Of a stretch of 64,000 nucleotides of DNA, positions 27,818 through 49,159 are shown in pieces; positions within the stretch are counted from its first letter, which is position 1; each line of letters starts with the position of its first letter. The notes under the pieces were generated by a model that saw nothing but the letters and a program-made list of their open reading frames with translations, did not search any database and was not told the DNA's origin. This stretch comes from Picochlorum sp. 'celeri' (taxonomy: Eukaryota; Chlorophyta; Trebouxiophyceae): assembly GCA_010909725.1 (NCBI GenBank), contig JAACMV010000005.1:496001-560000 (forward strand). The letters are read 5' to 3'. The translations under genes and the position numbers were made by a program.

Positions 27818-30800
27818 ATGAAGGGAAACTTGGCGAGGCACAGTCTTTTCGCCTTATTCCTTGCCGTGTTTCTGAGCGCGGCACAGTCCCAAGAATGTCC
27901 TGCAAACTACACCGCTGCAACATCCTCAGGATACTATGTGCTGTATTTTGGTGATTCTGATAGCGGTGGGGACTGTTGTGCTAGTAATGAACTTGCAATC
28001 AGCTGCGGTATTGACGTACTCTGCTCCGATCCAGCCATTTATGACGAATCCTTTGGGGCTTTGGCTCCATATTCCTCCTGTGGGACGTCTAGAGAGCTAC
28101 TTGTCGGATCAGACAACAGTGGTGCATCGACCACCTGTGATGAGGCGATGCAATATGTCCAGAATGTTGCAAACCAAAGCAACCTGGGATGCGACTCTGA
28201 TCAGTTCTCTGTAGCACGGCGGCAAGCACTGGCCTTGTGTGGGAATCAGGCATATCTGTGCATGGCTCAGCGCGTGGGAGGAATTTGTGGCGATAATACA
28301 ACCCTTGTGGAGGTGGATAGTACTGAGGCTGAAGATTCAGAGGTGGATTGTCCTCCTGAATACGTAGCAGCAAAGGAGAGTGGCTTCTACCCACTGTATC
28401 TCGGAAGTAGCACAGGGTTTACGAATCAGACTTGTTGTGAACGGTATCAAGTAGAGTCCTCGTGTGGTCTGGATGTCCTCTGCCCAAATCCAGCAGGGTA
28501 TAATCAGTCGTATGGAGAATTGTACACATATATTTCATGTGCAACCTCGGGACAAGTTCTTGTTGGGCTTGACAGGGCCAGTACATCTCTCTCTTGTGAT
28601 GATGCCGTAGCATATGCATGGAACATTTACAATCAGACTGGATGTGATTCTGATGAATACACTGCTGCAATTCAACAGGCACAGGCCAGATGTGGGTACC
28701 AGTCCTTGGAGTGCATTGGGAAATCAGTATATGGCGGATTTTGTGACATTGGAGTTCCTCAGGAAGATATTTCGGCATATCAGTGTTTCGCTGCTGCTCA
28801 AAATACAGCAGAGCAAGCTCAAGAAAAAGGCTGTGCCAGTGATGAATACATGGCTGCATTGAGTGAGACAAAGGCCTTGTGCAGAGATGATGCAGAAACT
28901 GTATTGGCTGCCACAGTTGGCAACGCATGCCCCTACACCTGTCAGAGTGCATTGAACAATCTAAGGGCAAAGGCGTCTACATTTTACACGTCTTGTGGAA
29001 CAAATGATTACAATTACGCAGCGCAGATTGTCGTTAACCTGTGTGGACCTGATGTCTTTATTCAAATCAATCAGGAGCTTTGTGCACCAAAGCCTTCCTC
29101 GTGCGAAGTTGCCTTGGATAATGCGATTCAGGCAGCGCAAAAGTATGGATGTGCTAGTAGTGAGTGGTCTGAAGCTCTGGCAACAGCAAAATCGGCGTGT
29201 CCTTTGTCCAAAGTAGCTGCTGCTATGGCCAATGCTGGTGTAGAATGTCCAATTACATGCTCACAGGCAATTCATGATCTAAAGAGAGCTGCATACTGGC
29301 CAGGATGCTTTACATTCACTTACTATCAAGCTTCCAAGGTTGCGATCAACACGTGTGGGTGGTTCAATTACTTCATTGCAGTGAAGGAGAACAACATCTG
29401 CCAGACAAGCCCAAGTCCATCACCACCACCGCCACCGCCGCCTCCACCATCTCCTCCTTCACGCCTATGCAGCACTAATATTGTTCCAAATGGGCCTTCT
29501 AATCTCAGGGTAACACAGTTGGGATCTACAAGCGTAGATCTGTGTTGGTATGTTGCTGTTGTGTGTCTTTGTCTGTAGGATCAAAACATTATTATTGCCT
29601 TCTGATGATGTGCAGGGATACTCCATCGAATCGTGGGTGTGTGGATTATTACGAGGTTCAAATCACTCCGGTGAATCTGTATGGCCTGTCTTCCTTGTTC
29701 TTCTCAGGCAGCAGTATCAAGGTACAGAGTGGGCAGTGTGTTCGTGTGACTGATTTGGCTCCTGGAACAAAATACTCTGCGAAAGTCACCTCTGTGACAA
29801 CAAAAGGTGGTGGGTCTTCTGAGCTCACCTTCACAACTGTCCCAGCGCCACCGAGTCCACCTCCAGTTCCTCCTAGTCCACCACCATCTCCACCGTCACA
29901 GCTCTGCTCTACATTGATCAGGCCAGGAGGGCCAAGCGATGTGCGTGTAACTACTCTGGGGGCAACGAGTGTTGAGATGTGCTGGAATCCACCAGAGAAC
30001 GGAGGGTGTGTGGATTATTATGACGTGAGCGTCACGCCTGTTGGTGTACAGGCTGTATCAGTGGCACTTGGAACCATCAAGGTTCAACGTGGAGAATGTG
30101 TGACAGTGAAAGACCTTGCTCCAGGAACTCAGTACTCTGCGACAGTAAGCTCTTATGCCGAAAGATTTGGAGGAGGAGGGTCCACGAGCATCACGTTCAC
30201 AACAGTTGCTCTGCCACCTGGACCAGCTGGCATTGTGCCACAGCCAGAGCCAGTCAAGCCAATCATTGGTCCAACAGTTTCATCCCCATCTCCAGAGCCA
30301 GAGCCTTCGCCATCTCCAGAGCCTATTGTTCCAAGTCCACCAAGCCTTGAGCCAGCGTCATCTCCATTACCATCACCATCTCCATCTCCATCGCCATCGC
30401 CATCGCCATCGCCATCGCCATCACCATCTCCTTCGCCTTCGCCTTCGCCATCACCATCGCCATCACCATCTCCATCTCCATCGCCATCTCCATCTCCATC
30501 TCCATCACCATCACCATCACCATCACCATCACCATCGCCATCACCATCTCCATCTCCATCACCATCGCCATCTCCATCTCCATCTCCATCTCCATCTCCA
30601 TCTCCATCACCATCACCATCTCCATCACCATCACCATCTCCATCTCCATCACCTCCAGCATGCACACCTCCAAGCAGTCCATTGAATCCCCAAGTCACTT
30701 CTGTGGATGAAACATCAGCCACAGTGTGCTGGAATGCACCGCTAGATGCCACTTGTGTGGACTATTACAATGTTGCCCTGGGCTCCAACCCACCAACAGT

Positions 30801-30987
30801 AGAGAATGGCCCCTGCAAGACATTTGGGCAATTGCAACCAGGCACCAGTTACACAGTTACAATCACCAGTGTATCAAATGTCGCTGGAGCAGGAGGATCT
30901 GTACAGACATCTTTCACCACCACAGCAGCACCAGTACCACCTCCTCCAGTGCCATCACCTTCTCCATCACCAAATCTTGATGGGTGA
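27818..30987 (+). CDS. Large secreted Cys-rich, FN3 and (Ser-Pro)n cell-wall glycoprotein
   Basis: Exons 27818-29547 and 29616-30987 give 1033 residues. A signal peptide ([15 protein letters not shown]) is followed by two long Cys-rich modules, each containing a CC pair and a GIDVLC/GLDVLC motif. There are also six copies of a shorter helical repeat (starting near residues 106, 258, 322, 374, 427 and 480) with the pattern Cys-x2-Ala, Gly-Cys-x-Ser-x-Glu/Asp and a closing Cys. A Pro-rich linker (about 530-550), two fibronectin type III-like domains, an uninterrupted run of about 48 Ser-Pro dipeptides (about 821-924), a third FN3-like domain and a short SP tail follow. Ser-Pro runs are classic substrates for prolyl hydroxylation and O-glycosylation, so this is probably a hydroxyproline-rich wall or matrix protein. 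The Cys-rich repeat is unfamiliar to me. TGTAA lies at 31038-31042. Confidence 0.9.
30362..30657 (+). repeat. Hexamer minisatellite TCNCCN encoding (Ser-Pro)n
   Basis: About 295 bp of imperfect TCNCCN units, varying only at third positions (TCTCCA, TCACCA, TCGCCA, TCTCCT). The frame is kept throughout, so it is under coding constraint. The plus strand is purine-poor. The strong periodicity also opens artefactual frames of Gly-Asp repeats on the minus strand and His-rich repeats in another plus frame. Confidence 0.95.
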
Positions 30988-31214: not shown

Positions 31215-31218
31215 AAAA
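31215..31218 (-). terminator. Probable RNA polymerase III terminator of the permuted tRNA gene
   Basis: TTTT on the minus strand, 9 nt past the last base of the 5' half (31228). Four T residues suffice as a Pol III terminator in most eukaryotes. Confidence 0.6.
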
Positions 31219-31227
31219 GAATAAGAA

Positions 31228-31343
31228 TAGAAGTCATATGCGCTATCCAATTGCGCCACCGAGGCAAGCACGCTGTAACACGTACGACATGGCAGAAGTA
31301 TTTTCGCCACCTCGGACGGGGGTCGAACCCGCAACCTTATGAT
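31228..31343 (-). tRNA. Circularly permuted tRNA-Arg(UCU) gene
   Basis: On the minus strand the 3' half (31343-31308: position 38, anticodon-stem 3' strand TCATA, variable loop AGGTT, T arm GCGGG-TTCGACC-CCCGT, acceptor CCGAGGT, discriminator G) precedes the 5' half (31265-31228: acceptor GCCTCGG, TG, D arm GCGC...GCGC, anticodon stem TATGA, loop CTTCTA). The halves are separated by 42 nt. Put in normal order they form a complete 74-nt cloverleaf with five of five anticodon-stem pairs, seven acceptor pairs (G1-U72 wobble) and anticodon TCT; the D arm matches eukaryotic tRNA-Arg(UCU). A box (TGGCGCAATTGG) and B box (GGTTCGACCCC) are intact but in reversed order. The break falls between positions 37 and 38, where normal tRNA introns lie. 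CCA is not encoded. Confidence 0.9.
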
Positions 31344-31568
31344 GTCTACAATAAATTGTTTACAAAATTGAATTTCCGTCGGAATAAAAAGAGATCAATC
31401 TTCTGACCCGGTCCTTTTACTGTCCTCTTTCGTGTAGATAGGACAATACCATGATGCATACACATCCCGGGTTGATGTCTGCAGGCGATACAGTCCTGAT
31501 ACCACACAAATGTTCGCAAACCCACCCACAACGTGGTCCCAGCACTGCCCACCTGTGCAGCAGATGCT

Positions 31569-47488: not shown

Positions 47489-49159
47489 ATGTCGCGGGGA
47501 CCAGTTCATCATCAACAGAGGGTCGCTCCGACGGAGAGGAGTGTCGGCTGTCCGCTCCTGTGGTTTGCTCTGATCGCTGGACTCGTGCTCATTCCTGTAC
47601 GTTCTCCTGCTTGTCTTCCTTCTAGATTCTTGTGAACATCCTGCTGCAGTGTGGCATCGTCAAAGTGGCAATTTGTGTGATGGATGGTATGCATGGACGG
47701 CAAGGTGTCAGTCGGGGTTGCATTGCACGTTTCATAGCCATGTATAACATGCAGTGAATGCGCTTACCAAATGATGCAGATCGATATTGTCTAAGTTGCG
47801 TTTATTTTTGCAGGTTTGCGAGTGCTCGCCAAGCCCTGCACCCCGGGGCCAAGGTTTACCAGCTCCACCAGCCACTGCAGAAGCAAAAAATACACAACCC
47901 CCTGTTCCGGGCACTCGTGTGGTGTCGTCTTCAAAGTACGTCAGTGCCGTGATACTTTCCTTGTGTTTCGAGCCATTATTGAGAATTCGATGCGTTGCAC
48001 CTGCAGTCCCTTGTTTTATCTGAGCACCAATGGCGTCACAGTCATGTGTCCTAGGGCCAAGGTGGGAGCCACCGGCACTGTGAATGGTGTTGTGTACACC
48101 AAGAGGTCAAGGAGGGACCTCTACAGCTTGGTGTCGACCAACCCATCGGCCCTCAGGAGTACATGCACAAGCAATATCACAGATATGAGCCGACTGTTTT
48201 CTGATGCGCCTGCATTCAACCAGGATATCAGCAAGTGGGACACTGGTCGGGTGACAGATATGAGCAGAATGTTCTATCTTGGCGAAGCATTCAATCAGGA
48301 TATCAGCAGGTGGGACACTGGTCGGGTGACAGATATGAGCAGAATGTTCTTTGGTGCATCTGCATTCAACAAGCCCATCGGCAGGTGGGACACTAGTCGC
48401 GTGAGAAGTATGAGCGACATGTTTACTTCTGCAATCGCTTTCAACCAGGACATTGGCAGGTGGAACACTGGTCGGGTGAGAAATATGAGAGGAATGTTCC
48501 AGTCTGCAATTGCTTTCAACAAGCCCATTGGCAGGTGGGACACTGGTCGGGTGAGAAATATGAGAGGAATGTTTTCTGGGGCGTCTGCATTCAATCAGGA
48601 TATCAGCAGGTGGGACACTGGTCGGGTGACAAGTATGAGCAGAATGTTTGATGGTGCCCAAACATTCAACAAAGACATCAGCAGGTGGGACACTGGTCAG
48701 GTGACAGATATGAGCAGAATGTTCTATTTTGCCCGAGCATTCAACCGAGACATTAGCAGGTGGGACACTAGTCGAGTGAAAAATATGAGAGTCATGTTCA
48801 AGTCTGCAATTGCTTTCAACCAGGGCATTGGCAGGTGGGACACTGGTCGGGTTAGAAATATGAGAGGGATGTTCTCTGATGCATCTGCATTCAACAAGCC
48901 CATCGGCAGGTGGAACACTGGTAAGGTGGCAGATATGAGCAGCATGTTCTCTGGTGCATCTTCCTTCAACCAAGACATCGGTAAGTGGAACACTGGTCGT
49001 GTGACAGATATGAGGAGCATGTTCTCTTTTGCATCTGCATTTAACCAGAATATTTCACTATGGTGCGTATCCCTGATATCCTCCAAGCCATTGGGATTCT
49101 CTCAGTCAAGTCCTCTGCTGCCATCATTCAATCCAAAATGGGGAACCTGTCCAGAGTAA
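47489..49159 (+). CDS. DUF285 (BspA-type leucine-rich) tandem-repeat surface protein, probably of bacterial origin
   Basis: Three exons, 47489-47596, 47814-47935 and 48007-49159, with good splice sites (GTACGT donors, TTGCAG and CTGCAG acceptors), give 460 residues. A hydrophobic segment (LLWFALIAGLVLIP, residues 23-36) is a signal peptide or anchor; a Pro-rich linker follows. Exon 3 starts at NPLFYLSTNGVTVMCP and GATGTVNGVVYTK, the leader of bacterial DUF285 proteins. Twelve 25-residue repeats follow, of the type MSRMFYLGEAFNQDISRWDT. The end, WCVSLISSKPLGF...WGTCP, is the typical C-terminal cap seen in marine Bacteroidetes homologues. The protein is probably exposed at the cell surface or secreted; its ligand is unknown. 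TGTAA lies at 49203-49207. Confidence 0.87.
48185..49064 (+). repeat. Twelve in-register 75-bp tandem repeats (DUF285 coding)
   Basis: The Met codon of successive units recurs exactly every 75 bp from 48185 to 49010, with no insertion or deletion; the last unit is partial. Units are highly similar at the nucleotide level (GGTGGGACACTGGTCGGGTG recurs), consistent with recent duplication or gene conversion. It also creates a long artefactual open frame on the minus strand. Confidence 0.93.

Follow-up and report, generated by a model that had tools for sequence, protein, structure and literature searches.

A circularly permuted tRNA gene, in which the 3' half of the tRNA precedes the 5' half, lies at 31228..31343 on the minus strand of a 64,000-nucleotide (nt) stretch of the green alga Picochlorum sp. 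'celeri' (GenBank assembly GCA_010909725.1, contig JAACMV010000005.1; C5:496001-560000 in our contig labelling), hereafter called the window. We are highly confident that it is a working type II (37/38) nuclear tRNA-Arg(UCU) gene, belonging to a permuted set of at least 19 isoacceptors in this alga. The reading is based on the anatomy of the locus, the conservation of the two halves between haplotypes, the terminators, an upstream element shared among tRNA genes, the presence of endonuclease genes, and searches in which no linear UCU gene was found. The analysed genome comprises 27,412,692 bases in 30 contigs, and Picochlorum celeri is described as a phased diploid of 27.43 Mbp with two sets of 15 scaffolds and 46% G+C (Becker et al. 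2020, PMC7225527). One protein encoded here matches a Picochlorum sp. BPE23 protein with 99% identity across 97% of its length. An initial annotation of the window, made from the sequence alone, had proposed the permuted gene. Our analysis confirms the observation, supports its interpretation as a permuted tRNA-Arg(UCU), and finds 18 further isoacceptors to be permuted too, which lay beyond the view of that annotation.

Anatomy of the tRNA-Arg(UCU) locus

Read 5' to 3' on the minus strand, the locus is composed of the tRNA 3' half (positions 38 to 73; 31308..31343), a TTTT-free linker of 42 nt (31266..31307), and the tRNA 5' half (positions 1 to 37; 31228..31265). The 3' half (36 nt) contains A38, the anticodon-stem strand TCATA, the variable loop AGGTT, the T arm GCGGG-TTCGACC-CCCGT, the acceptor strand CCGAGGT, and the discriminator G73. 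The 5' half (38 nt) contains the acceptor strand GCCTCGG, TG, the D arm GCGC-AATTGGATA-GCGC, A26, the anticodon-stem strand TATGA, and CTTCTA, with the anticodon TCT (positions 34 to 36) at 31229..31231. Joined at 37/38, the halves give the complete 74-nt cloverleaf of the initial annotation, with the anticodon loop C-U-U-C-U-A-A, and ARAGORN calls the rejoined sequence tRNA-Arg(tct). The acceptor stem does have the seven pairs described, one of them being a G1-U72 wobble, and the T stem is present with one G49-U65 wobble. The spacer length of 42 nt also stands, with its coordinates corrected to those given above; its role as a linker to be excised is suggested by the genes reviewed by Soma (2014). 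The linker bases following G73 are GCG, and the tRNA thus has a 3' end of the eukaryotic type without an encoded CCA.

The B box GGTTCGACCCC in the T arm (31319..31329, minus strand) is located upstream of TGGCGCAATTGG in the D arm (31247..31258, minus strand), which we take to be A-box-like by its presumed consensus. Upstream of the gene, the sequence GGAAATTC (31370..31377, minus strand) begins at -34 and belongs to an element common to permuted and linear tRNA genes, being a probable RNA polymerase III (Pol III) promoter element as judged by hexamer enrichment. Downstream, the TTTT reported by the initial annotation begins at +10 (31215..31218, minus strand) and is a probable Pol III terminator.

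In genomic order, neither ARAGORN nor Rfam at gathering thresholds finds a tRNA in the window. A brute-force scan for permuted cloverleaves gives exactly one match on both strands of the real window and none in 60 dinucleotide shuffles. Both halves are also recovered by a covariance model (R1), built from nine linear tRNAs of the same genome in permuted order plus Arg(UCU), i.e., 10 sequences. Arg(UCU) scores 64.3 bits (E 1.7e-19) while itself being one of the 10 seeds, and permuted genes outside the seed set reach 66 bits. The second haplotype (C20) carries identical halves and an identical linker, with 2 differences in the 60-nt leader, and the two contigs are homologous at the locus, aligning over 2.9 kb with 95% identity. 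The presence of the locus in both haplotypes makes an assembly error unlikely. A chance arrangement of tRNA-like words is refuted by the shuffled windows, by this conservation, and by the matching halves in 19 isoacceptors, leaving it a negligible probability.

The search for a linear UCU gene

The initial annotation had noted that AGA decoding would depend on permuted processing if this were the only UCU gene. For a genome-wide look, 63 of 866 first-look candidates were scored with RF00005, which yielded 36 matches, 34 of them above threshold (30 became loci at first, and the other four were fetched later). By inspection, no linear Arg(UCU) is among these matches. The mature 74-nt sequence used as a query matches only the two haplotype copies, each as two pieces in reversed order, and a search for the 5' half that allowed up to 3 mismatches likewise finds these two copies only. 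One locus (L031) was named a linear Arg(tct) by ARAGORN. Its loop TTCAAG, its long Leu-type variable arm, which is common to the permuted Leu genes, its acceptor, and its intron position instead make it, in our reading, Leu(CAA) with an intron; its allele (L032) receives the ARAGORN name Gly(tcc).

Among the Arg codons in six long stop-to-stop frames of the window, AGA is the most frequent (88 of 5099 codons, followed by AGG with 85). Because the searches yielded no linear UCU gene, the decoding of AGA very probably rests on the permuted gene.

Nineteen permuted isoacceptors

Finding only 34 linear matches in a diploid genome raised the suspicion that more tRNA genes were hidden. They were searched for with ungapped T-arm patterns and one D-arm pattern, followed by R1 and the cloverleaf scan. 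Three tRNAs (Glu, Glu, and Asp) had been dropped from the first R1 alignment, where their shorter variable loop misaligned. As R1 and the cloverleaf scan seek the 37/38 junction only, permutations at other positions would be missed. The pattern matches were fetched from one haplotype of most, though not all, places, and the counts are lower bounds.

The searches located 19 permuted and 21 linear isoacceptors, with 11 of the linear ones containing an intron. The permuted isoacceptors are Ala(AGC), Ala(CGC), Ala(TGC), Arg(CCT), Arg(TCG), Arg(TCT), Cys(GCA), Gly(GCC), Leu(AAG), Leu(CAG), Leu(TAA), eMet(CAT), Ser(AGA), Ser(GCT), Thr(CGT), Thr(TGT), Tyr(GTA), Val(AAC), and Val(CAC), where eMet is the elongator Met; Cys(GCA) was the only yield of further searches for isoacceptors still missing. 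The linkers range from 11 nt (Cys) to 128 nt (Arg(TCG)). Class I permuted genes score 45 to 66 bits with R1, Arg(TCG) excepted, and class II genes (Leu and Ser) score 25 to 39 bits, as a class I model fits Leu and Ser poorly. For eMet and Thr(CGT), the variable loop given by our script was replaced by the 5-nt loop of the covariance model. The terminator and linker table holds 35 rows for the 19 isoacceptors, after the duplicate rows for L047 and the window were dropped.

Arg(TCG) is found at two places per haplotype (C8 and C17) in four near-identical copies (L054, L056, L069, and L071). Three of them score 30.5 bits and one 25.5 bits, because the model did not reach the 5' half beyond the 128-nt linker. 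The cloverleaf scan located this half in three of the four copies and missed L069, which has one extra G in the variable loop.

The names of several linear intron-containing genes are corrections of ARAGORN made by hand and not tool calls: L027 was renamed Arg(CCG), L033 Pro(TGG), L125 Arg(ACG), and L116 Ser(TGA). L016, called Met(cat) by ARAGORN, was taken as the initiator from its sequence. Two candidates were discarded, namely, the locus C5:252517, which by eye is not a tRNA, and L100, a false ARAGORN call. A further locus (L122; C14:382205-382467, minus strand) has a good T arm and acceptor with an odd D/anticodon region, and might represent a pseudogene, a fragment from an organelle, or an unusual tRNA. 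In addition, a repeated element within about 20 kb of contig ends carries the T-arm-like word GGTCCGGGGTTCGAGCC (L045, L063, L065, L066, L073, L074, L088, and L094). ARAGORN finds no tRNA in this element near the chromosome ends.

Rejoined halves and haplotype comparison

When the halves are rejoined, ARAGORN gives the expected amino acid in 19/19 isoacceptors, and the same genes in genomic order are called in 0/19. Control joins of halves taken from different genes are called in 35 of 342 cases.

Between haplotypes, 1 of 1144 aligned sites differs in the halves, compared over 15 gene pairs with indels left aside. The corresponding counts are 16 of 527 for the linkers, 18 of 899 for the leaders, and 10 of 443 for the trailers. 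Such a pattern would be expected if purifying selection acted on both halves but not on the linker. Ala(CGC) was excluded from these totals, its alleles differing over the D arm (5 substitutions and 2 gaps in the 5' half), and the haplotype script contained no pair for Ala(AGC), Ala(TGC), or Cys. For Ala(TGC) and Cys, the second allele was judged by eye; for Ala(AGC), none was found in the 4 kb examined on C30.

The UCU locus might be seen as the relic of a tandem tRNA duplication which lost its outer halves, the remaining pair being a dead pseudogene and AGA being read by an unseen linear gene. Tandem duplication has been put forward as one way in which permuted genes arose (Soma 2014), and a stray T-arm-like piece directly upstream of the Asn and Phe genes suggests that tRNA pieces may move. 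A dead relic is nevertheless hard to reconcile with halves that are nearly invariant between haplotypes beside varying linkers, with the rejoining of all 19 isoacceptors to correct tRNAs, with the outcome of the search for a linear UCU gene, and with the shared promoter-like element and terminators described below. We therefore regard this explanation as very unlikely.

A side observation concerns the permuted Ala genes. The alleles of Ala(CGC) (L060 on C10 and L068 on C16) and, by eye, those of Ala(TGC) (L091 on C30 and L174 on C4) differ over most of the D arm and have the same acceptor and T arm. The divergent alleles, again judged by eye for Ala(TGC), can each still form at least three D-stem pairs. 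The D arms look as if they had been exchanged or converted.

Transcription signals

None of the 19 permuted genes has TTTT in its linker, where 2.2 would be expected. In 18/19 genes, a TTTT follows the 5' half within 37 nt, compared with 14% of random 40-nt windows, and in the 19th gene, Leu(AAG), a longer stretch of sequence shows TTTTT at 36 nt downstream.

When the upstream 60 nt of 40 tRNA gene entries are compared, the most enriched hexamer is AAATTC, which is present in 20 of them (ranked among the 200 commonest hexamers). It occurs upstream of 11/19 permuted and 9/21 linear entries versus 1.8% of random 60-nt windows, this background being drawn from the whole window, coding and intergenic DNA together. 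In 18 of 21 occurrences, it is positioned 22 to 43 nt upstream. The 21 linear entries stand for 19 isoacceptors, two being second alleles (Phe and Trp); the linear Arg(ACG) and Ser(TGA) genes were left out, with too little upstream DNA in the retrieved sequence. An element common to permuted and linear genes suggests promoter-driven Pol III transcription, which would account for the transcription of genes whose A and B boxes are inverted. The same promoter argument has been made for Cyanidioschyzon merolae from its TATA-like upstream sequences (Soma 2014).

These signals also bear on the possibility that the halves are transcribed separately, as split tRNA genes are, and joined in trans. Split tRNAs do exist in archaea, according to the same review. 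Here, however, the upstream element and the T-run bracket each pair of halves as one unit, and TTTT is absent from all 19 linkers. The Arg(UCU) halves lie 42 nt apart with no terminator between them, so that separate transcription units are not apparent from the sequence. Linkers as short as the 11 nt of Cys leave little room for a second promoter. We give joining in trans an even smaller chance than the duplication relic.

We also considered whether an upstream B box is a general feature of the linear genes, which was rejected. Among 22 linear entries, which still included the false call L100, a GTTCRA word is found directly upstream only in Asn and Phe (in both Phe alleles), with another at -62 of the initiator Met gene. 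In the linear Asn(GUU) (L038 and L087) and Phe(GAA) (L043 and L092) genes, the sequence GGTCCCGGGTTCAAA fills the 15 nt directly before the 5' end. It resembles a variable loop followed by a B box, as in the 3' half of a different tRNA, and may be left over from a permuted state or act as an additional promoter element.

Proposed processing of the permuted transcripts

The initial annotation had proposed that the leader TAGA (31348-31345) pairs with the anticodon-loop TCTA as in a splicing endonuclease substrate. Our unconstrained fold contains this pairing within a GUAGA:UCUAU helix, in both the minimum-free-energy and the centroid structure. The leader GTAGA (31345..31349, minus strand) is predicted to pair with TCTAT (31231-31227), from the anticodon to the first trailer base, forming a possible substrate helix. 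The genome encodes a Sen34-type endonuclease (PF01974) at C7/C24, with a 216-amino-acid open frame which matches Sen34 chains in the PDB (E down to 2.3e-18), and a second tRNA-splicing endonuclease gene of the same family. The latter lies in a stretch of at least about 1.0 kb that is 100% identical at seven places (L178 to L184; C10, C12, C16, C21, C25, C26, and C9). Four of these copies are on contigs of 15 to 32 kb, and the copies may represent a recent duplication or assembly duplicates.

We propose that Pol III starts at the AAATTC-type element and stops at the T-run, in which case transcription would not depend on the A and B boxes being in their usual order. The resulting RNA, composed of leader, 3' half, linker, 5' half, and trailer, would fold into a tRNA whose ends lie at the anticodon loop. 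The tRNA-splicing endonuclease would cut off the leader and the trailer, and a ligase would join 37 to 38, giving a circle. RNase P and tRNase Z would then excise the linker from the acceptor end, and CCA would be added. For Arg(UCU), transcription, circle formation, ligation, trimming, and charging are inferred from other algae, from work summarised by Soma.

Several observations weigh against a working gene in a permuted set that is processed in this way. In the Arg(UCU) case, 25% of the controls with swapped leaders and trailers fold as well, so that the TAGA:TCTA pairing alone is weak evidence. Over the set, bulge-helix-bulge (BHB)-like pairing of the leader with the trailer/anticodon loop beats the control median in 14/19 genes and beats 95% of the controls in only 2/19, and four permuted genes fold worse than 84 to 97% of their leader/trailer controls. 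Fisher's combined p is 0.009 for this pairing over the 19 genes. With this weak excess, BHB pairing in the predicted folds is weakly supported over the set, which falls short of demonstrating a strict BHB motif. Shuffled versions of the whole precursor fold about as well as the real one (z of -0.38 and -0.89). As for the transcription signals, the permuted Leu(TAA) carries TTTT inside its 5' half, and the exact AAATTC is missing upstream of 8/19 permuted and 12/21 linear entries. About seven expected isoacceptors were not located by our searches: Gln(TTG), Gln(CTG), His, Gly(CCC), Thr(AGT), Leu(TAG), and Sec (selenocysteine). Finally, a strongly diverged linear UCU gene is possible, since the genome searches are lower bounds.

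Having weighed these points, we think it reasonably likely that about half of the tRNA species (19/40 located) are made via circular RNA intermediates, that the common upstream AAATTC enables this by freeing the order of the A and B boxes, and that AGA decoding depends wholly on permuted processing.

Neighbouring open reading frames

Two other features of the window were recorded. An open frame on the opposite strand (29503-30987) ends some 230 nt away from the tRNA gene and contains repeated segments, presumably fibronectin-III-like, and a long Ser-Pro repeat; this Ser-Pro/segment repeat stretch differs between the haplotypes. A second open frame (47795-49159) is rich in FNQDISRWDTGRVTDMSRMF-type repeats, which we take to be BspA-like, and probably encodes a surface protein.

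Relation to known permuted tRNA genes

By 2014, 34 permuted tRNA genes were known, and the hosts in the review of that year are one red alga, four prasinophytes, one nucleomorph, and one archaeon (Soma 2014). The closest counterpart listed there is the permuted tRNA-Arg(TCT) of Ostreococcus tauri, which is alike in amino acid, anticodon, and the 37/38 junction, and in having no further intron (Table 1 of that review). The likeness rests on the table description and not on the sequence, and the linker is 11 bp in O. tauri and 42 nt here.

The red alga C. merolae resembles Picochlorum in having a large permuted share in a small genome, with 11 of its 43 nuclear tRNA genes permuted. As here, its permuted genes have an upstream element and a downstream T stretch, with none in the intervening sequence. 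The upstream element is TATA-like in C. merolae and AAATTC-like, common with the linear genes, in Picochlorum. The C. merolae junctions are 20/21, 37/38, 50/51, and 59/60, whereas the 19 genes found here share 37/38, the sole junction searched. Its linkers measure 7 to 74 bp, compared with 11 to 128 nt in Picochlorum. The 128-nt linker of Arg(TCG) exceeds the 74-bp maximum listed in the 2014 table, and 19 permuted isoacceptors exceed every single-genome set in it.

Within the same class, Trebouxiophyceae, Auxenochlorella UTEX 250-A has a streamlined diploid genome with permuted tRNA genes, and its tRNAscan-SE set was incomplete until these were found, as described in a 2025 paper. The permuted tRNA-Ser genes of chlorarachniophyte nucleomorphs are, as here, type II, and are of green-algal origin (Soma 2014, Table 1; a 2015 nucleomorph paper). 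Unlike here, they comprise two Ser genes only, in a relic nucleus. The initial annotation had named hosts of this already known kind of gene and omitted these nucleomorphs and Auxenochlorella. It had also supposed that both the instance and its lineage may be undescribed. We found no report of permuted tRNA genes in Picochlorum in the open-access PMC literature, judged mostly by title; the class is already represented by Auxenochlorella. The SENEW3 genome paper used tRNAscan-SE, and the word "permuted" is absent from its main text. The kind is thus known, also within Trebouxiophyceae, and the Picochlorum set looks new and unusually large.

Much of this alga's translation machinery is apparently made via RNA closed into circles, by analogy with the algae discussed above. 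If true, a set covering half of the tRNA species would be the largest that we found described. Standard tRNA annotation may overlook nearly half of the tRNA species in Picochlorum and its relatives. In a fast-growing marine alga for which Cas9 tools have been reported, two open questions become accessible to experiment: how Pol III reads a gene in which the order of the A and B boxes is inverted, and whether the cell loses or gains by permutation.
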